Of a DNA stretch of 64,000 bases, positions 15,103 to 63,288 are shown in pieces. Origin of the DNA: Humibacillus xanthopallidus (lineage in GTDB: Bacteria > Actinomycetota > Actinomycetes > Actinomycetales > Dermatophilaceae); assembly GCF_006717145.1 (NCBI RefSeq), contig NZ_VFQF01000003.1:992001-1056000 (forward strand), in the 5' to 3' direction. A program made the translations under genes and the position numbers. Positions within the stretch are counted from its first letter, which is position 1; every line of letters begins with the position of its first letter. The notes below the pieces were generated by a model. It ran no database searches and was not told where the DNA came from. It worked only from the letters and a program-made list of their open reading frames with translations.

Positions 15103-16536
15103 GTGAGCGACGCCGACCGGATGGCCGGGCCCGAGCCGGCGCCCGAGGCGGTGAGCGGACCCGAAGCGGTGACCGGACCGGAGGCGGTGCCCGGCCCCGA
15201 GGCGGTGAGCCGCGCCGGCACTCCGAGGTTGCGCTACCCGCTGGACGGGCGCCGGGCCTGGGCGGTGTGGGGCGCGGCCATCTCGGTCTACGTCCTCGCC
15301 GTCTTCCACCGCACCTCGCTCGGCGTCGCGGGCATCGAGGCCGCCGAGCGCTTCGGCATCACCTCGGCGCAGCTGTCGACCTTCACCATCCTGCAGGTCC
15401 TCGTCTATGCGCTCATGCAGCTGCCCGTGGGGGCGCTGCTCGACCGCTACGGCTCGAAGCGGATGCTCGCGGTCGGGCTCACCCTCCTGACGGTGGCGCA
15501 GCTGTCCTTCGCCTTCGTCGACTCCTACGCCCTCGCTCTCCTGTGCCGGGTTCTGCTCGGCATGGGCGACGCGATGATCTTCATCTCGGTGCTGCGGCTC
15601 GCGGCGCTGTGGTTCTCCCCGCGGCGCACACCGCTCGTCACGCAGTTCACCGGGCTGCTCGGTCAGCTGGGGGCGCTCGCCGCCGCCGGCCCCCTCGCGG
15701 CGGCGCTGCACACCTTCGGCTGGACCCCGTCGTATGCCGTCGCCGCCTCCTTCGGCGTCGTGACGGGCATCGCCCTCGTCCTGCTCGTCAAGGACAGCCC
15801 GTGGGTCGACCAGCACCGCGACGAGATGCGGCTGCGGGCGCTCGGGCGCACCCTGCGGGCCGCCTGGCTCGTGCCCGGCACCCGGCTCGGGCTGTGGTCC
15901 CACTTCACGTCCCAGTTCTCGGCCAACATGTTCACGATGCTGTGGGGCTTCCCCTTCCTCATCTCGGGGCAGGGCCTGACGTCGGGCCAGGCGAGTCTCG
16001 TGCTCTCGCTCATGGTCGTCACGGCGATCGTGTCGAGCCCGGTCATCGGCACGCTGACGGCGCGCTACCCGTTCTCGCGCAGCACGCTGGTGCTCGTCAT
16101 CGTCGGAGCCGCCATCGCGGCGTGGACGGTGGTGCTGCTCTGGCCCGGGCGGGCCCCGATGTGGCTGCTCGTCGTCCTCGTCGTGCTCATCGCGATCGGT
16201 GGCCCGGGATCGATGATCGGCTTCGACGTCGCGCGCACGTTCAACCCGCCGACGCGAATCGGCAGCGCCTCCGGCATCGTCAACACCGGCGGTTTCCTCG
16301 CGACGCTCGCCGCCGTTGCACTCGTCGGCGTCGTGCTCGACCGTGTCGCGCCGGCCGGCCCCTCGACGTGGGACGTCGACGCCTTCCGGCTCGCGATGAC
16401 GGTGCAGTACCCCGTGTGGGCGCTCGGCATCGTGCAGATCCTGCGGTGGCGTCACAAGGCCAGGCGCGCTGCGCTCGAGGCCGACCCGGAGGCGTATGCC
16501 GCGATGCGCGCCGGCCGCTCCGTCACCTTCCACTAA
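15103..16536 (+). CDS. MFS transporter with acidic repeat N-terminus
   Basis: This protein of about 477 residues has twelve predicted membrane helices and the MFS motif A between helices 2 and 3 (LLDRYGSKRML). Before helix 1 is a low-complexity segment with four tandem GPEAV-type units, from a short DNA tandem repeat at about 15145-15210 that probably varies in copy number between strains. Helix 1 contains AVWGAAISVYVLAVFHRTSLG. GTG 15103 is chosen as the start; GTG 15067 and ATG 15121 are also in frame. It follows the malic enzyme closely and ends convergently with another MFS gene across a repeat array. The substrate is not identifiable. Confidence 0.82.
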   Translation: MSDADRMAGPEPAPEAVSGPEAVTGPEAVPGPEAVSRAGTPRLRYPLDGRRAWAVWGAAISVYVLAVFHRTSLGVAGIEAAERFGITSAQLSTFTILQVLVYALMQLPVGALLDRYGSKRMLAVGLTLLTVAQLSFAFVDSYALALLCRVLLGMGDAMIFISVLRLAALWFSPRRTPLVTQFTGLLGQLGALAAAGPLAAALHTFGWTPSYAVAASFGVVTGIALVLLVKDSPWVDQHRDEMRLRALGRTLRAAWLVPGTRLGLWSHFTSQFSANMFTMLWGFPFLISGQGLTSGQASLVLSLMVVTAIVSSPVIGTLTARYPFSRSTLVLVIVGAAIAAWTVVLLWPGRAPMWLLVVLVVLIAIGGPGSMIGFDVARTFNPPTRIGSASGIVNTGGFLATLAAVALVGVVLDRVAPAGPSTWDVDAFRLAMTVQYPVWALGIVQILRWRHKARRAALEADPEAYAAMRAGRSVTFH

Positions 16537-16571: not shown

Positions 16572-16755
16572 GTCGAGTGGCCACACTTGGTCGCTCCTCA
16601 CCCGTCGAGTGGCCACTCCTGGTCGCCCGCATCCAGTCGAGTGGCCACTCCTGGTCGCCCGCATCCAGTCGAGTGGCCACTTCTGGTCGCCCGCATCGAG
16701 TCGAGTGGCCACTCCTGGTCGGGCCTGACGCGTCGAGTGGCCACTTTTGGTCGGG
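16572..16755. repeat. 32-bp-period tandem array (family R1), six forward units
   Basis: Six units beginning GTCGAGTGGCCA start at 16572, 16604, 16636, 16668, 16700 and 16732, an exact 32-bp period. Each has a conserved core of about 23 bases (GTCGAGTGGCCACTCCTGG then TCG) and a variable 8-9 base joint. The array lies in the 612-base space between two convergent MFS genes. Because 32 is not a multiple of 3, it cannot encode a repeated peptide. Related arrays lie at 44739-45039 and 61741-61875. Confidence 0.93.
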
Positions 16756-16791
16756 CGGCTGCCCCCGGCGCGGAGGCCGGATCGCCTGGCC

Positions 16792-17139
16792 GCACCCACG
16801 TGCGGGGCGCGCCGGACGGCATACCTCGGTTCGGTCGGGGACCGACCGTGCTGGTGGGCGACCATCTCGCGACAGCGTCGAGAGGCCAGACCTCGCGACG
16901 AAGTTTGGCCTCTCGAGTGAGACGAGGCGGCTGAAAGTGGCCTCTTGACGGGGGGAAATGGCGGGTCGCTTGGCAGCACCCACGTGCGGGGCGCGGCGGA
17001 CGGCATACCTCGGTTCGGTCGGGGACCGACCGTGCTGGTGGGCGACCATCTCGCGACAGCGTCGAGAGGCCAGACCTCGCGACGAAGTCTGGCCTCTCGA
17101 GTGAGACGAGGCGGCAGAAAGTGGCCTCTCGACGGGGGG
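16792..17139. repeat. Two 164-bp direct repeats carrying reverse R1-type units
   Basis: Copies at about 16792-16955 and 16976-17139 are nearly identical (offset 184). Each contains a GTATGCCG octamer in reverse, an inverted pair TCGAGAGGCCAGAC / GTTTGGCCTCTCGA (right arm varies), and two reverse-oriented R1 ends spaced exactly 32 bases (16917/16949 and 17101/17133). Together with the forward units at 16572-16755, the region could fold into a large hairpin between the convergent genes. Confidence 0.88.
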
Positions 17140-17148
17140 AGGTGCGAG

Positions 17149-18363
17149 TCAGGCGTCGCCGACGGTGACGGCCTCCGCCTCGAGGCGCGAGCCGACCGGC
17201 TCCGCGCCGTGGTCGGGCTCGGCGTCGAGAGCCGAGATGAGGCGGCGGGCGGTGAGCAGCACGACGACCGCGAGCACAACGGCAGCGGATCCGACCCAGA
17301 AGGGGAGGTGGATCGACTTCTCGCCGAGCGTGCCGGCCAGCCACGGCGCGACCGCGCCACCGCTGAAGCGGACGAAGCTGTATGCCGCCGACGCGACGCC
17401 ACGCTCAACCGGGGAGATCTTCATGACCGTCTCGGTGATGAGCGTGTTGTTGATGCCGAGGAAGGCACCCGAGACGACGACCCCGACGATGAGCACCGTC
17501 TTGTTGTCGGTGCCGATGGCCATGATCGCGAGGATGATCGCGAAGCCGAGCAGCGCCCCGACGATGCCGGGGAGCGTGCCAAAGCGACGCTGGATGACGG
17601 GTGCGACGAAGACGGACGTGATGGCGAGGAGCAGGCCCCAGCCGAAGAAGATGAAGCCGATCTCGCGGGCGCCCATGGCCAGGGGGAACGGCGTGAAGGC
17701 GAGCAGCGTGAAGAAGCCGAAGTTGTAGAGCAATGCCGTGATGCCGACGGTGAGCAGGCCGCGGTGGCCGAGGGCGCGCAGCGGCGCCGTGATCGACGTC
17801 GGGTGCTCGGCGCGCGGCGTGGCGGGGAGCGTCGTCACGGTCGCGATGAAGGCGATGGCCATGAGCAGCGCGACGCCGTAGAACGGCCAGCGCCACGAGA
17901 TGCCGCCGAGCCAGCCACCGAGGAGCGGACCGGTCGCGATGCCGACCCCGAGGGCGGCCTCGTAGAGGATGATCGCCTGCTTCACCGAGCCCGACGCGGC
18001 GTTGACGATCGTCGCGAGGGCGGTCGCGATGAAGAGGGCGTTGCCGAGGCCCCAGAGGGCGCGGAAGGCGACGATGCCGCCGACGGTGTCCTGGCTGCCC
18101 GCGAGGGCGGAGCCGACGATGATGAGGGCGAGCCCGACGAGGAGCGTGCGCTTCGCGCCGATGCGGCTGCTGACCCACCCGGTGCCGAGCATCGCGACGC
18201 CCATGACGGCGAGGTAGCTGGTGAAGAGCAGCGAGACCTGCGACGGGCCGGCTCCCAGCTCATCCGCGATCGGCTTGAGGATGGGGTCGACGAGGCCGAT
18301 GCCCATGAAGGAGATCACGCAGGCGAAGGCGATCGACCAGACGGTCTTGGGTTGACGCCACAT
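17149..18363 (-). CDS. MFS drug-type exporter (DHA1-like)
   Basis: This 404-residue, twelve-helix MFS transporter resembles DHA1 drug:proton antiporters. It starts MWRQPKTVWSIAFACVISFM and has motif A as GTGWVSSRIGAKRTLLVG. The helix-5 motif C-like region reads ALGVGIATGPLLGGWLGG, a hallmark of antiporters. The C-terminal tail is acidic. The gene follows a MarR regulator by 7 bases on the same strand, so the pair is an operon in which MarR should sense the exported compound. The substrate is unknown. Confidence 0.87.
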   Translation of the reverse strand: MWRQPKTVWSIAFACVISFMGIGLVDPILKPIADELGAGPSQVSLLFTSYLAVMGVAMLGTGWVSSRIGAKRTLLVGLALIIVGSALAGSQDTVGGIVAFRALWGLGNALFIATALATIVNAASGSVKQAIILYEAALGVGIATGPLLGGWLGGISWRWPFYGVALLMAIAFIATVTTLPATPRAEHPTSITAPLRALGHRGLLTVGITALLYNFGFFTLLAFTPFPLAMGAREIGFIFFGWGLLLAITSVFVAPVIQRRFGTLPGIVGALLGFAIILAIMAIGTDNKTVLIVGVVVSGAFLGINNTLITETVMKISPVERGVASAAYSFVRFSGGAVAPWLAGTLGEKSIHLPFWVGSAAVVLAVVVLLTARRLISALDAEPDHGAEPVGSRLEAEAVTVGDA

Positions 18364-20907: not shown

Positions 20908-22455
20908 ATGTCGACCAGCACCACCTCCGCTGCGGTCGCCGCAGCACCCACGCCACCCTCGACCACCTCCTCGACTACCTCCTCGACCACCCCCTCGGAC
21001 GCGGGCGCCCGACGGTCAGCGATCGGCCTCGGGGTCGTCCTCGTCGCCCAGCTCATGCTCGTGCTCGACGCGACCGTCGTGAACGTCGCCCTCCCGCACA
21101 TCCAGACCGACCTCGGCTTCACCCCCGCCGGACTGTCCTGGGTGCTCAACGCCTACACCCTCGCCTTCGGCGGCCTGCTGCTGCTCGGCGGCCGACTCGG
21201 TGACGTCTTCGGGCGCCTGCGCAGCTTCGAGATCGGCCTCGCGATCTTCACCGTCGCGAGCCTGCTGGGCGGCCTCGCGACCACCCCGGCCTGGCTCATC
21301 GCGGCCCGCACGCTCCAGGGCGTCGGCGCGGCGCTCGCTGCCCCGAGTGTCCTCGCCCTCGTCACCACGAGCGCCCGGAACGAGGCCGCCCGCAACCGCG
21401 GTCTCGCCCTCTTCACCGCCGTGTCGTCGGCCGGCGCCTCCATCGGGCTGCTGCTCGGGGGAGCCCTCACCGACTTCGTGAGCTGGCACTGGACGCTCTT
21501 CGTCAACGTGCCGATCGGCGCGGTCGTGCTCGTGCTCGCCCGTCGCTTCGTCACCGAGACACCACGCGTGCGGGCTCGCTTCGACGTCGTCGGAGCGGTC
21601 ACCGCGACGCTCGGCTCGGTCTCGGTCGTCCACGGCTTCATCAGCGCCGCCGACCGCGGCTGGAGCTCGCCGATCACCCTCGCGTCGTTCGTCGTCGGGC
21701 TGGCGCTCCTCGCCCTCTTCGTGCGCACGGAGGGTCGCGTCGCCGCTCCGCTGCTGCCCCTCGGCCTCGTCCGGGAGCGCTCGCGCGCCGGGGCGCTCGT
21801 GCTCATGGCGCTCGTCGTCGGCGCGCAGTTCTCGACGTTCTTCCTCGTGACGCAGTACCTCCAGCTGGTCCTCGGCTTCAGCCCGGTCGCGACCGGCGCG
21901 GCGTTCCTCCCGCTCAGCCTCGCGATCTTCGCGACGTCGCGGGTCAGCGCGCGCCTCGTGGCCCTCGTCGGGCCCCGCCCGCTGCTCCTCGTCGGCACCC
22001 TCGGGCTCACCGCGAGCTTCGTGTGGCTGAGCAGCATCACGACGACGAGCACGTATGCCGCCCACCTCCTCGGTGCTCTCGTGCTCAATGGCGTCTCGGC
22101 GGCGCTCGTCTTCATGCCGGTCACGGTCATCGTGCTCGGCGGGGTCGACCGCTCGCAGGCTGGCACGGTCTCGGGTCTGCTCCAGACGTCGCAGCAGCTG
22201 GGCGGCGCCGTGGGTCTGGCCGCGATCGTGAGCGTCTATGCGTCACAGGCGGTTCCGGGCCAGTTCGTGCCCGGCGTCGAGCCGGCCTTCCTCACCTCGG
22301 CCGTCTTCACGTCGACGGCCCTGCTGGTCGCGGTCTTCGTGCTCCGGCCACGCCGTCAGGCCCCCGATGAGATCTCCAAGCGACCGGCCGGCCGGCATCA
22401 ACTGGCGGATCACCAGGTGTCTGGTGTTGCTCTGACAGCACCGAACGCCGACTGA
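20908..22455 (+). CDS. DHA2-family (14-TM) MFS drug efflux transporter
   Basis: This 515-residue EmrB/QacA-type exporter has a Ser/Thr/Pro-rich cytoplasmic N-terminus of ~35 residues, then fourteen predicted helices. The DHA2 motifs are LDATVVNVALPHIQTDLGF in helix 1, LLGGRLGDVFGRLR (motif A), and GASIGLLLGGALTDFVSWHW (motif C). The last ~22 residues (GRHQLADHQVSGVALTAPNA) are encoded by the first unit of a 92-bp tandem repeat, so that tail is probably strain-variable and not ancestral. Control by the divergent TetR through two palindromes is likely. The substrate is unknown. Confidence 0.9.
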   Translation: MSTSTTSAAVAAAPTPPSTTSSTTSSTTPSDAGARRSAIGLGVVLVAQLMLVLDATVVNVALPHIQTDLGFTPAGLSWVLNAYTLAFGGLLLLGGRLGDVFGRLRSFEIGLAIFTVASLLGGLATTPAWLIAARTLQGVGAALAAPSVLALVTTSARNEAARNRGLALFTAVSSAGASIGLLLGGALTDFVSWHWTLFVNVPIGAVVLVLARRFVTETPRVRARFDVVGAVTATLGSVSVVHGFISAADRGWSSPITLASFVVGLALLALFVRTEGRVAAPLLPLGLVRERSRAGALVLMALVVGAQFSTFFLVTQYLQLVLGFSPVATGAAFLPLSLAIFATSRVSARLVALVGPRPLLLVGTLGLTASFVWLSSITTTSTYAAHLLGALVLNGVSAALVFMPVTVIVLGGVDRSQAGTVSGLLQTSQQLGGAVGLAAIVSVYASQAVPGQFVPGVEPAFLTSAVFTSTALLVAVFVLRPRRQAPDEISKRPAGRHQLADHQVSGVALTAPNAD

Positions 22456-22651
22456 TCGCCCAGTTGATCCACGTCGGTGCTCGTCGGCATCAACTGGCGG
22501 ATCACCAGGTGTCTGGTGTTGCTCTGACAGCACCGAACGCCGACTGATCGCCCAGTTGATCCACGTCGGTGCTGGTCGGCATCAACTGGCGGATCACCAG
22601 GTGTCTGGTGTTGCTCTGACAGCACCGAACGCCGACTGATCGCCCAGTTGA
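22393..22651. repeat. 92-bp tandem repeat, three copies, hairpin-forming
   Basis: Units start at 22393, 22485 and 22577 (exact period 92) and are almost identical; the third lacks its last ~18 bases. Within each unit ATCAACTGGCGGATC is nearly complementary to GATCGCCCAGTTGAT at the other end, and an inner CACCAGG/CTGGTG hairpin is present. The first unit overlaps the 3' end and stop of the MFS gene. It fills most of the 309-base gap before the pyrophosphatase gene. Confidence 0.95.
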
Positions 22652-37758: not shown

Positions 37759-38913
37759 TCAGGCTACGTCGCCGCTCGTGACCCGCTTCACCGCCCACCA
37801 GAAGCCGCCGAAGCCGCCCGGACGGAGGAGCTCCGCCTCGGCACCCGCCCGCTCGAGGGCGCGCAGGTAGCCGAGCGGGTCGGTCGCGGCGAGGGTGTGC
37901 GGCGGGGTCTGCCCGCGGATCCCGAGGTCGCGCAGCACGTCGCGCTGGCGCCCGACCCGGTCCGCGTCGAGGGTGTCGATCGCGACGTGGGCCGTGAGGT
38001 CCATCGTGCCGTCGGGCACCGGCTCCGTCTGCACCCCGCGGCGGTATGCCGTGAGCGTCCCCTCGTTCGGACGCTCGCTCGCGACGTGGCCGTAGTCCAC
38101 GGCGACGAGGGTGCCGGAGCCGACCCGGGAGACGAGGTCGGACCAGGCCTCGTCGCGGGTGCGACCGACCTCGAGGCGCGCGCCCGGGGTGGTGGCGGGC
38201 CAGTGGGCGTCGGCCCAGTCGCTGTCTGCAGGGTCGAGGGGATCCCCGAGGGACTCGGCGCCGGTGACCGGGTCGACGAGGACGACGCGCGGGGCGCCCT
38301 GCGGGTCGACCTCAGCGACGGTGCAGGGCACGACGTCGAGCCACTCGTGCGCGATGACGAGCGCGTCGCGCAGTCCGGCGAGCTCGGTCGGCAGCGTCTC
38401 GCCACCGGGCGAGCGGAGCCAGGCGATCCGCTCGTCGAGCCCCGCCGGCCGAGCCACGACGTCGACGGCCACCACCCGAGTGGGCGGACCCTCCGATCGA
38501 GAGAGCAGTTCGTCGGTCGCTGGGGTCCCTCGTCGATCGAGAGAGCACTCCGTCGGCTCCTCGTCTGCCCTGGGGGTGCGCTCCAATCGAGAGAGCAGTT
38601 CGTCGGTGGTCGTGGCCGCTTGCCGATCGCGAGAGCACTCCGTCGGCTGCTCGTCGTATGCCGCGAGGGCGGTGAGGAGGTGGGTCGCCAGCTCACCACG
38701 GCCCGCGCCGACGTCGACGACGACCGCGGGCAGGTGGTCGTGCTCGCGGAGCCACAGACGCAGCAGGGCCTCGGCGAGCACTGCCCCGGTCACCCCGTGC
38801 GTCGCGGTCGTGAAGTGCTCGGCAGGCCCACCGCGGGTGACGTAGAAGCCCCGCCCTGCGGCATACAGGGCGTCGTGCCAGGCCTCGCGCCACGGAAGGG
38901 CATCCACGCCCAC
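37759..38913 (-). CDS. MidA/DUF185-type SAM methyltransferase with repeat-derived insertion
   Basis: This 384-residue protein resembles the MidA/NDUFAF7 (DUF185) methyltransferases: GRGFYVTRGGPAEHFTTATH at the N-terminus, motif I VVVDVGAGRGELATHLL, HEWLDVVPC, LVAVDYGHVASERPNEGTL. Mitochondrial NDUFAF7 methylates the NDUFS2 (NuoD homologue) subunit of complex I, notable because an orphan nuoD lies 2.3 kb away. Between motif I and the next strand (about residues 89-141) the chain is interrupted by a repetitive segment, TECSLDRRGTPATDELLSRS and near copies. That segment is encoded by four R2 repeats in frame. It should form a surface loop. The start is GTG 38913. Confidence 0.8.
   Translation of the reverse strand: MGVDALPWREAWHDALYAAGRGFYVTRGGPAEHFTTATHGVTGAVLAEALLRLWLREHDHLPAVVVDVGAGRGELATHLLTALAAYDEQPTECSRDRQAATTTDELLSRLERTPRADEEPTECSLDRRGTPATDELLSRSEGPPTRVVAVDVVARPAGLDERIAWLRSPGGETLPTELAGLRDALVIAHEWLDVVPCTVAEVDPQGAPRVVLVDPVTGAESLGDPLDPADSDWADAHWPATTPGARLEVGRTRDEAWSDLVSRVGSGTLVAVDYGHVASERPNEGTLTAYRRGVQTEPVPDGTMDLTAHVAIDTLDADRVGRQRDVLRDLGIRGQTPPHTLAATDPLGYLRALERAGAEAELLRPGGFGGFWWAVKRVTSGDVA
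38494..38646. repeat. Four R2 repeat copies inside a coding sequence
   Basis: Copies start at 38494, 38534, 38584 and 38624, each like CGATCGAGAGAGCAGTTCGT then CGG. Copies 1+2 and 3+4 form a ~63-base composite duplicated at a 90-base offset, so the reading frame is kept. They match the intergenic copies at 18885 and 46671-46763. Confidence 0.92.
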
Positions 38914-44738: not shown

Positions 44739-45039
44739 GTCGAGTGGCCAAATCTGGTCGCCCAAACCCCGTCGAGTGGCCAAACCTGGTCGCCCTAACC
44801 CCGTCGAGTGGCCACTCTTTGTCGTCTCCACCGCGTCGAGTGGCCAATCGTGGACGAGCGTTGCCCAGGGACAGCCGACACGGGAGGGCCGGCCAGATCT
44901 GGCCTCTCGACACGGGAAAGGCGGCCAGGTTTGGCCTTTCGACCAAGACAAGGCGGCCAAGAGTGGCCACTCGACGGGGGAGGGGCGGCCAAGAGTGGCC
45001 TCTCGACGGGGGAGGGGCGACCAGGTTTGGCCTCTCGAC
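44739..45039. repeat. R1 array: four forward then five reverse units, exact 32-bp period
   Basis: Forward units start at 44739, 44771, 44803 and 44835 (GTCGAGTGGCCA). Reverse units end at 44911, 44943, 44975, 45007 and 45039 (GGCC(T/A)CTCGAC type). All steps are exactly 32. The two halves are complementary and fill nearly the whole 318-base gap between convergent genes. Units differ at fixed positions, for example AAATCTGG, AAACCTGG and ACTCTTTG. Confidence 0.94.
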
Positions 45040-61740: not shown

Positions 61741-61875
61741 GTCGAGTGGCCACTCCTGGTCGCCCCCTCCGAGTCGAGTGGCCACTCCTGGTCGCCCCCT
61801 CCGAGTCGAGTGGCCACTCCTGGTCGCCCCCTCCGAGTCGAGTGGCCACTTCTGGTCGCCCCGCCCAGTCGAGTG
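61741..61875. repeat. R1 array interrupted by the IS element
   Basis: Units start at 61741, 61773, 61805 and 61837, a 32-bp step, and a fifth at 61868 (31-bp step). The fifth is cut after GTCGAGTG at 61875 by the insertion element, and its remainder GCCACTTCTGGTCG continues at 63289. All units point in one direction, away from mutY. Confidence 0.94.
61868..61875. repeat. Left target-site duplication of the IS element
   Basis: GTCGAGTG matches GTCGAGGG at 63281-63288 in seven of eight positions. Joining the flanks rebuilds a complete R1 unit, so the duplication is real with one later base change. Confidence 0.8.
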
Positions 61876-63280
61876 GAGACTGTCCGACGAACGGTGTAAC
61901 TGGCCCCGACGCTGAGGATTCAGCGGGAAGGGTCTGATGATGACCGAGACACTGGTGGGCGTGAGCCCACCGCGGAAGGCAGGCAGGCAGACGCTCACAC
62001 CTGAAGAGGTGGAGCGCGCGGCGGTGCGCGAGCTGGTCAAGGCTGCTCGCGCCAGGGGTGAGGAGCTGACCGGCCCGGACGGGCTGCTCAAGGCGATCAC
62101 CAAACAGGTCCTCGAGGCCGCCCTCGAGGAGGAGATGACCGAACACGTCGGCTACGACAAGCACGCCGCCGAGGGCCGTAACGGGGCCAACTCGAGGAAC
62201 GGGACCCGCGCGAAGACGGTGCTGACCGACAACGCCGGCCCCGTCGACATCGAGGTCCCGCGGGACCGGGACGGCAGCTTCGAGCCGGTCATCGTCAAGA
62301 AGCGGCAGCGGCGCCTGAGCGACGTCGACGCGGTCGTGCTGTCGCTGTACGCCCGCGGGCTGACCACCGGAGAGATCAGCGCGCACTTCGCCGAGATCTA
62401 CGGCGCGTCCGTCAGCAAGGACACCGTCAGCAGGATCACCGACCGGGTCATCGAGGACATGCAGACCTGGTCGGCCCGGCCGTTGCAGCGGGTGTACGCG
62501 GCCGTGTTCATCGACGCCATCATGGTCAAGGTCCGCGACGGACAGGTCGGCAACCAGCCGTTCTACGCCGCGATCGGGGTTGACCTGCAAGGTCATCGTG
62601 ACGTGCTCGGGTTGTGGCCCGGCAACGGTGGCGGGGAGTCCGCGAAGTTCTGGATGAACGTGCTGACCGAGCTGCGCAACCGGGGCGTGGCGGACGTCTT
62701 CTTCATCGTCTGTGACGGGCTCAAAGGGCTGCCGGACAGCGTGAACGCGGTGTTCCCGCACGCGATCGTGCAGACCTGCATCGTGCACCTGATCCGTGGC
62801 ACGTTCCGGTACGCGTCGAAGAAGTACTGGGACGCCATCGCCAGAGACCTGCGCCCGATCTATCAAGCACCCAGCGCCGAGGCGGCGTGGGCCGCGTTCG
62901 AGGAGTTCGAGGAGAAGTGGGGCAAGGCCTACCCGGCGATCCCGAAGCTGTGGCGCAACAGCTGGGAGCAGTTCATCCCGTTCCTGGCCTACGACCTCGA
63001 GATCCGCAAGGTGCTCTGCTCGACGAACGCGATCGAGTCCCTGAACGCCCGCTACCGGCGGGCCGTGAACGCGAAGGGTCACTTCCCGACCGAGCAGGCC
63101 GCCCTGAAGACGCTGTACCTGGTGACGCGGAGCCTGGACCCCAAAGGGCTCGGGCAGGCACGATGGGTGACCCGGTGGAAGCCGGCCCTGAACGCCTTTG
63201 CAGTCACCTTCGCCGACCGTATGCCGGCCGCGGAGAACCTCTAACACAAATGCCAGTTACACCGATGATCTGACAGACCC
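61876..63280 (+). mobile_element. IS256-family insertion sequence (1405 bp)
   Basis: The element is bounded by imperfect 29-base inverted repeats at 61876-61904 and 63252-63280 (23 of 29 identical; the innermost CGGTGTAACTGGC is exact). It contains one transposase gene, and 8-base direct repeats flank it. Insertion was into a unit of the 32-bp array. The nearly intact target duplication and intact transposase suggest a fairly recent, possibly active, copy. Confidence 0.93.
61937..63244 (+). CDS. IS256-family transposase
   Basis: This 435-residue mutator-type DDE transposase catalyses movement of the element. The catalytic residues are seen in AVFIDAIMVKVRDG (Asp193), FFIVCDGLKGLPD (Asp260) and CSTNAIESLNARYRRA (Glu367). 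TCIVHLIRGTFRYASKKYWD supplies the family's conserved H-L-R segment. The N-terminal ~60 residues include LEAALEEEMTEHVGYDKHA, typical of the group. ATG 61937 is followed by a second ATG, either of which may be used. The gene has no frameshift or stop. Confidence 0.96.
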   Translation: MMTETLVGVSPPRKAGRQTLTPEEVERAAVRELVKAARARGEELTGPDGLLKAITKQVLEAALEEEMTEHVGYDKHAAEGRNGANSRNGTRAKTVLTDNAGPVDIEVPRDRDGSFEPVIVKKRQRRLSDVDAVVLSLYARGLTTGEISAHFAEIYGASVSKDTVSRITDRVIEDMQTWSARPLQRVYAAVFIDAIMVKVRDGQVGNQPFYAAIGVDLQGHRDVLGLWPGNGGGESAKFWMNVLTELRNRGVADVFFIVCDGLKGLPDSVNAVFPHAIVQTCIVHLIRGTFRYASKKYWDAIARDLRPIYQAPSAEAAWAAFEEFEEKWGKAYPAIPKLWRNSWEQFIPFLAYDLEIRKVLCSTNAIESLNARYRRAVNAKGHFPTEQAALKTLYLVTRSLDPKGLGQARWVTRWKPALNAFAVTFADRMPAAENL

Positions 63281-63288
63281 GTCGAGGG
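63281..63288. repeat. Right target-site duplication of the IS element
   Basis: GTCGAGGG follows the right inverted repeat. It is directly followed by GCCACTTCTGGTCG, the rest of the interrupted R1 unit. Confidence 0.8.

Follow-up and report, generated by a model that had tools for sequence, protein, structure and literature searches.

Polar, 32-bp-phased repeat arrays at gene ends in Humibacillus xanthopallidus as candidate transcription-end signals

Within a 64,000-nucleotide stretch of the Humibacillus xanthopallidus genome (the window), two convergent genes for MFS transporters are separated by an interval that carries repeated copies of one short, oriented unit. The locus raises the question of what such an array does behind two genes that run towards each other, and of how it came to be there. 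Its features, together with two further arrays of the same type in the window, are as follows.

15103-16536, plus strand: MFS transporter gene, left member of the convergent pair (longest open reading frame from 15067)
16572-16753, plus strand: forward run of six units, GTCGAGTGGCCA-N6-GYCG, at a spacing of exactly 32 bp
16778-16956, no strand: direct duplication, block 1, 179 bp, offset 184 bp
16817-16824, minus strand: octamer GTATGCCG of block 1 (second copy at 17001-17008 in block 2, minus strand)
16877-16917, no strand: hairpin of block 1, forward arm (16877) and inner reverse unit, 17 predicted pairs, -28.5 kcal/mol
16938-16949, minus strand: outer reverse unit of block 1, one mismatch, 32 bp from the inner unit (16906)
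16962-17140, no strand: direct duplication, block 2, 179 bp, offset 184 bp
17061-17101, no strand: hairpin of block 2, forward arm (17061) and inner reverse unit, 17 predicted pairs, -31.1 kcal/mol
17122-17133, minus strand: outer reverse unit of block 2, 32 bp from the inner unit (17090)
17149-18363, minus strand: MFS transporter gene, right member of the convergent pair
44739-45039, no strand: same-type array of four forward and five reverse units, with convergent genes on either side
61741-61876, plus strand: same-type array of four exact forward units and a fifth interrupted by an IS256-type element

The sequence GTCGAGTGGCCA occurs exactly at 16572, 16604, 16636, 16668, 16700 and 16732, and the six-unit, 32-bp-phased forward array of a preliminary description is thus borne out at every spacing. 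Two reverse units per block, 32 bp apart (16906/16938 and 17090/17122), one GTATGCCG octamer per block on the minus strand, and placement between convergent genes (plus, then minus) were also located as described there. The duplicated blocks are present, but the length given for them, 164 bp, was not recovered: each is 179 bp long, the second starts 184 bp after the first, and the forward arm that each carries had been missed. The blocks differ at 7 positions over 179 bp (96% identity); because the copies differ from each other, a duplicated-contig artefact of the simple kind is unlikely. The first forward unit begins 35 nt past the stop codon of the left gene, and the outer reverse unit of block 2 lies 15 nt past that of the right gene. 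With up to one mismatch, GTCGAGWGGCCA matches 25 times in the 64-kb window against 2.07 expected, a number that none of 100 shuffles reached. The preliminary description did not extend to polarity relative to genes, to placement at the stop codon or to the hairpin junction, nor to the 12-unit array of another locus (L129) and the different unit cores of a same-genus genome.

The same unit recurs throughout the genome to which the window belongs (G000; 5.39 Mb in three contigs). The pattern TCGAGWGGCCA forms 164 phased pairs there, against 0 in the control, and falls into at least 43 clusters; the list of loci covers at least 150 of the 164 pairs and may miss a few. Each unit reads GTCGAG-W-GGCCA, then six free bases, GYCGC and a C-rich spacer. 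Copies of this asymmetric element of about 22 bp (GTCGAGWGGCCA-N6-GYCG) follow one another head to tail, one every 32 bp. Among same-strand neighbours up to 140 bp apart, counted in the fetched loci of this genome and the window, 165 of 186 lie at 32 bp, 13 at 31 bp, 2 at 33 bp and 6 elsewhere. Most units stand in head-to-tail runs of 2-9, with a near-invariant box and six variable inner bases (loci L130-L134 are left out of the logo and stem counts). Both orientations are found in 11 of 25 convergent clusters and one orientation only in the other 14. Tight forward/reverse junctions yield a hairpin; hairpins of the form CGARWGNNCA..TGNNCWYTCG number 47 in this genome, and not every run has one.

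The placement of the runs was related to genes as called by our own codon-usage caller. A gene in the sense orientation lies upstream of 52 of the 62 runs of at least two units in G000, and its stop codon is at most 20 nt away in 40 of those 52. The ten non-sense runs adjoin an opposite run in seven cases and are alone in three (L119, L126 and L132). Relatives follow suit, with a sense gene upstream of 96 of 127 runs. Convergent gaps hold 38 of 64 runs in G000 and 62 of 126 elsewhere, and divergent gaps hold 1 of 64 and 7 of 126; the background of gaps of at least 100 bp (n = 146, including gaps that hold arrays) consists of 37 convergent, 70 co-directional and 39 divergent gaps. Where a co-directional gap contains a single orientation, 10 of 11 runs in G000 and 20 of 29 elsewhere are sense (30 of 40 together), the antisense runs elsewhere numbering nine of 29. 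Where it contains both, 7 of 14 runs in G000 and 13 of 28 elsewhere are sense, and this half is about the expectation for two facing runs. A coding function was rejected: a period of 32 would not keep a reading frame, being no multiple of 3, and of the 127 runs in other fetched DNA only two, from Myxococcus and Streptomyces, fall within called genes, against 125 outside them (a third in-gene match, Roseimaritima L021, is not counted in this figure). Chance matches L012, L021, L086, L093 and L094 were dropped from the gap-type and hairpin-mismatch counts, and L012, L021 and L086 also from the rut-like count of the relatives given below; L012 and L086 remained in the 127-run placement count. The units are polar gene-end elements.

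It is tentatively proposed that they are a REP-like family, amplified head to tail, that serves as gene-end modules, most likely as transcription-end signals with Rho loading as the preferred mechanism. A gene-end role of the arrays is likely in itself. As to mechanism, what the sequences suggest would place Rho loading first and a DNA-bound factor as its strongest rival. The sense RNA of a run, with more C than G, regularly placed C residues and no ribosomes past the stop codon, would load Rho, and transcription would then end within or beyond the array. Where two runs face each other, transcription of both convergent genes would end, perhaps helped by polymerase pausing at the central hairpin. 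Because Rho alone leaves the 32-bp period and the conserved box unexplained, a further protein may read the unit as well.

On their sense strand the arrays contain C at 0.388 and G at 0.291. Compared with ordinary 3' flanks, YC dinucleotides (p 4e-9) and the excess of C over G (p 2e-5) are raised, and the sense RNA is less structured (p 0.001). Sites of Rho loading (rut sites) are characterized, in the accessible part of PMC6407284, by a C/G ratio above 1 and a C every 11-13 nt in 78 nt. With C/G >1, such sequence was found on the sense strand at 50 of 54 array starts in G000 and at 35 of 54 flanks; with C/G of at least 1.3, the array starts that qualify are 46 of 54, as compared with 24 of 54 for ordinary 3' flanks and 2 of 54 for the antisense strands of the arrays. 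The arrays of relatives qualify no more often than flanks at C/G >1 (42 of 59 against 195 of 275), and they show no rut-like excess over 3' flanks (31 of 59 and 122 of 275, respectively, p = 0.31); the strand asymmetry is kept (31 of 59 sense against 6 of 59 antisense). The Rho reading is limited by this, because the 3' flanks of relatives do about as well as the arrays.

The RNA-binding domain of Rho is present in all 5 of the 5 genomes tested. When the proteins of G000, G178 and G001 (the same-genus genome) were aligned, G000 and G001 differed mainly in a long low-complexity N-terminal stretch, in which DRQQ-type repeats differ in copy number between the two (L196 and L195, respectively). 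According to the accessible part of PMC4167861, the Rho proteins of Mycobacterium tuberculosis and other actinobacteria have an extra N-terminal subdomain, and RNA binding by it was shown for M. tuberculosis. One locus, L123, counts in favour of a transcription-end function by equivalence of place: at L123a, seven forward units in G000 correspond to a plain long hairpin in G001. The non-sense runs (10 of 62) and the single-orientation convergent clusters (14 of 25) count against it, as do the nine antisense runs of 29 in single-orientation co-directional gaps elsewhere and the lack of a sense majority in co-directional gaps with both orientations.

Such hairpins raise the possibility that the arrays are plain intrinsic terminators, repetitive by chance. 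GC-rich hairpins of the intrinsic-terminator kind are indeed present (the 47 of the genome; -28.5 and -31.1 kcal/mol for the two in the window array). At ten tight junctions the central pair is complementary at 3.4 of six inner bases, against 2.15 of six for other pairs (p = 0.002), and paired double changes occur in 74 distinct hairpins, i.e., the halves co-vary. However, a T-tract (at least five T in eight) follows 0 of 102 sense hairpin ends, where the T fraction is 0.15 against a window average of 0.14, many runs lack a partner of opposite orientation, and complementarity is kept in the central pair only. This explanation is accordingly regarded as highly improbable. Long nested pairing between forward and reverse runs was rejected too: 290 non-junction pairs match at 2.15 of six inner bases, with 0.51 for the W base, which is no better than units from different loci.

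Structure within single units fared no better. An intra-unit RNA hairpin was rejected, as 170 unique units show no stem covariation, the top mutual-information pairs being close neighbours, and an uninterrupted stem (loop 3-6) longer than 6 bp was found in 0 of 259 units. Stems of at least 4 bp are commoner in units (115 of 259) than in shuffles (362 of 1295), and the 4-6 bp stems fit the short palindrome GTGGCCAC that many units contain. Directional RNA structure of the runs was also rejected, with equal shuffle z-scores (-2.6 sense and -2.6 antisense), although per base the antisense strand gives the more stable fold of the two. In 32 co-directional hairpins, a small number, the sense-strand mismatches comprise 29 G-U, 26 A-C and 64 others. 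The nearly equal numbers of G-U and A-C point to pairing at the level of DNA, or to copying of arms, and speak against selection for an RNA stem.

The alternative in which the units act as polar sites at the DNA level bears directly on these counts. A putative sequence-specific DNA-binding protein would occupy each unit, one per three helical turns and on one face of the DNA, and would either block polymerase in one direction or anchor the nucleoid or supercoils at gene ends; the related cores found elsewhere would be recognition variants of the same protein. The 165 neighbours at exactly 32 bp, a spacing that is dominant in Terrabacter and URHB0013 too, argue for this, as do the helical phase of the units, which suits a DNA-bound protein, the near-invariant box with its variable inner six bases and lack of stem covariation, and the similarity of the G-U and A-C counts, i.e., pairing that deviates alike on both strands. 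Spacing is looser, however, in an Intrasporangium metagenome-assembled genome (MAG; 23 and 29-34 bp) and for the AGAGCA core, where it is spread over 29-33 bp (the full range searched), and a firm barrier 2-4 nt past a stop codon would halt polymerase before the stop codon had been copied. Overall, a purely DNA-level role is possible but rather unlikely.

A different objection to the transcription-end reading is that the units could be selfish or neutral REP-like repeats with no function of their own, persisting behind genes, where insertion is least harmful. Their patchy spread would be expected of such elements: the GGCCA tandem form is found in 14 of 186 genomes of the family (7 of 53 genera), and from 0 to 52 GGCCA tandem pairs occur across the nine genomes of a single genus, g50 (putative Terrabacter). 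The 12-unit L129 array, missing from G001 and G177, fits as well, as does the position of REPs elsewhere, likewise within 20 bp of 3' ends and between convergent genes (accessible part of PMC3733652). Neutral insertion does not, however, predict the sense polarity seen in 30 of 40 runs of single-orientation co-directional gaps, or one common period at dozens of loci despite different spacers. Membership of the REP/RAYT system, and spread by it, was rejected: PF01797 (Y1, IS200/IS605-type transposase) has 0 matches in G000, while the control matched in 5 of 14 genomes. Selfish persistence alone is likewise possible but rather unlikely.

The likeness to REPs nevertheless deserves a closer comparison, for which the accessible part of the study of CGTC REPs by Di Nocera et al. 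(2013, PMC3733652) was used. Both kinds of element are short, high-copy, intergenic, close to 3' ends and present as inverted pairs, both lie between convergent and co-directional genes, and neither has a dedicated transposase. The CGTC REPs bear a CGTC tag at one end (or TGTC/CCTC); here, in 243 units from the fetched loci of G000 (window units excluded), GTCG is preceded by C, giving CGTC, in 151, by A in 51, by G in 33 and by T in 8. Each CGTC REP has an 8-9 bp stem with a 4-5 nt loop, which 0 of 259 units have here, and its dimers are mostly head-to-head, those of head-to-tail type being absent, under-represented or negligible, whereas here the head-to-tail arrangement dominates at a fixed 32-bp period. 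The same source, as far as accessible, describes REPs mostly from Proteobacteria, does not use the word "Actinobacteria" in its main text and mentions REP-like sequences without such tags in M. tuberculosis. REPs are also known targets of insertion sequences (accessible part of PMC1525189), and in the present window an IS256-type element lies within a unit of the 61741 array, with a further forward unit beyond it at 63281. The element spans 61878-63278, has imperfect terminal inverted repeats (22/28) and contains an IS256/Mutator-type transposase gene (62009-63244). It has no reciprocal best match in five syntenic stretches, and the corresponding junction is without it in G001, G176 and G178.

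A comparison within the genus was made with G001, in whose syntenic stretch 56 of 60 called genes of the window have reciprocal best matches, most at 90-98% protein identity. Phased GGCCA pairs are lacking in G001; the wider pattern TCGARWGNNCA gives 51 phased pairs, and hairpins of the CGARWGNNCA..TGNNCWYTCG kind number 101, against 47 in G000. At the 61741 place G001 has six TGCCCA units (five GTCGAGTGCCCA, one GTCAAGTGCCCA) at the identical period, with 24 of 32 unit bases alike between the two genomes. AGAGCA-type arms occupy the 16572 place, and AGAGCA, TGCTCA and TGCCCA arms the 44739 place. Elsewhere, L122, L123b and L127 have TGCCCA arms and hairpins in G001, L119 an AGAGCA hairpin and L128 a GTATGCCG palindrome, and no recognizable unit was found in G001 at L121 or L129 (the G001 stretches taken contain no ortholog of L120 or L125). 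Between the two genomes a given locus may hold a full array, an array with a related core or a hairpin, or be empty.

One interpretation of these differences is sequence-specific polar termination, in which a single putative trans-acting factor would read the unit of about 22 bp and the set of sites would switch core together with the factor between species (GGCCA, TGCCCA, AGAGCA, TGTGCA, GGTCA), keeping place, polarity and the period of about 32 bp. This is considered improbable.

The comparison also bears on how arrays grow. Neighbouring same-strand units have 4.0 of the six variable bases in common, against 2.6 for units of different loci, which supports growth by unit as the probable mode. 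Unit number differs at L124 (one GGCCA hairpin in G001, four forward and six reverse units in G000) and at L126 (six units in G000, but in G001 only a degenerate pair at a 31-bp spacing), in keeping with this mode, although the direction, growth or loss, is not proven. For L129, gain of the 12-unit array in G000 is the most likely course on the sequences compared, because G177, like G001, is without it. Growth by block is supported by the 184-bp-offset duplication at 16572 and by tandem whole-hairpin copies in G001. The view of the preliminary description that arrays grow by unit and by block is thus supported in part. The GGCCA hairpin form reaches a larger number of genera than its tandem counterpart. 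The inverted arm pair at a gene end may be the older form, the arms of which the G000 and Terrabacter lineages would have multiplied in tandem. The arrays are a case of fast turnover of dispersed repeats with a nearly constant spacing.

Across the 186 family genomes the GGCCA hairpin form is present in 23 (13 genera) and the wider tandem form in 22 (11 genera). Order-wide, a wider tandem pair occurs in 9 of 396 genomes, of which 5 are outside the family with one to three pairs each. Among the matches listed are Terrabacter, Humibacillus, Intrasporangium and a "Dermatophilaceae bacterium" MAG. Glaciihabitans tibetensis, a member of the Microbacteriaceae, has two units at a 31-bp spacing that do not overlap any called gene. 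A phage origin was rejected, two viral-contig matches being AT-rich repeats of different make-up.

Several known systems resemble the arrays in part. Mycobacterial interspersed repetitive units form tandem arrays scattered between genes at some 40 loci and share the orientation of the genes beside them; the present arrays are likewise actinobacterial, dispersed, tandem, intergenic and gene-oriented, but those units are some 50-100 bp long, whereas here they are 32 bp, lie behind genes, form facing runs and contain no small open reading frame. In mouse rDNA, transcription is stopped in one direction by the Sal-box arrays, to which TTF-I binds. These arrays too are tandem, oriented short sites behind genes, but are eukaryotic and of one locus type, whereas the present arrays are bacterial, occupy many loci and have a unit-binding protein that is only putative. 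With rut sites the arrays have in common an excess of C over G, a C every 11-13 nt in 78 nt, a start past stop codons and action on one strand (accessible part of PMC6407284); rut sites do not show the fixed period, the conserved 12-bp box or the genome-wide reuse of a single sequence that mark the arrays. Among the titles and abstract openings listed by literature searches, none describes such arrays, which does not prove that a description is lacking. In our judgement, termination between convergent genes without T-tracts in high-GC actinobacteria is poorly understood, and dozens of gene ends with a countable unit, together with a same-genus genome where the unit differs or is lacking, make roles in termination, of copy number and of spacing testable.

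Other repeats were noted along the way. Covariance models of Rfam, run over the whole window, gave one tRNA only at the gathering score and left the arrays unmatched. A 92-bp tandem repeat of 2.8 copies (22393-22651) spans the stop codon of gene 20908-22455 and copies the gene end; it is absent from the same junction in G001. Direct repeats with an AGAGCA core (ATCGAGAGAGCA), about 40-48 bp apart at 38496-38655, apparently lie within the coding region of the minus-strand gene 37759-38913, as called here. The GTATGCCG octamer occurs 285 times against 12 expected from base composition (about 24-fold), with no excess over the 7-mer expectation (274), and in the G000 loci and the window it is denser between genes (100 in 50 kb) than in coding sequence (185 in 302 kb). 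The gap orthologous to that of the window array holds a different inverted repeat family, with arm AACACACCGA, in G170 (putative Terrabacter; L136) and G018 (putative Humibacillus; L143). In G172, the junction of window genes 31/32, between convergent genes, contains about ten copies of a ten-base tandem repeat, GGTCAGGCCC.
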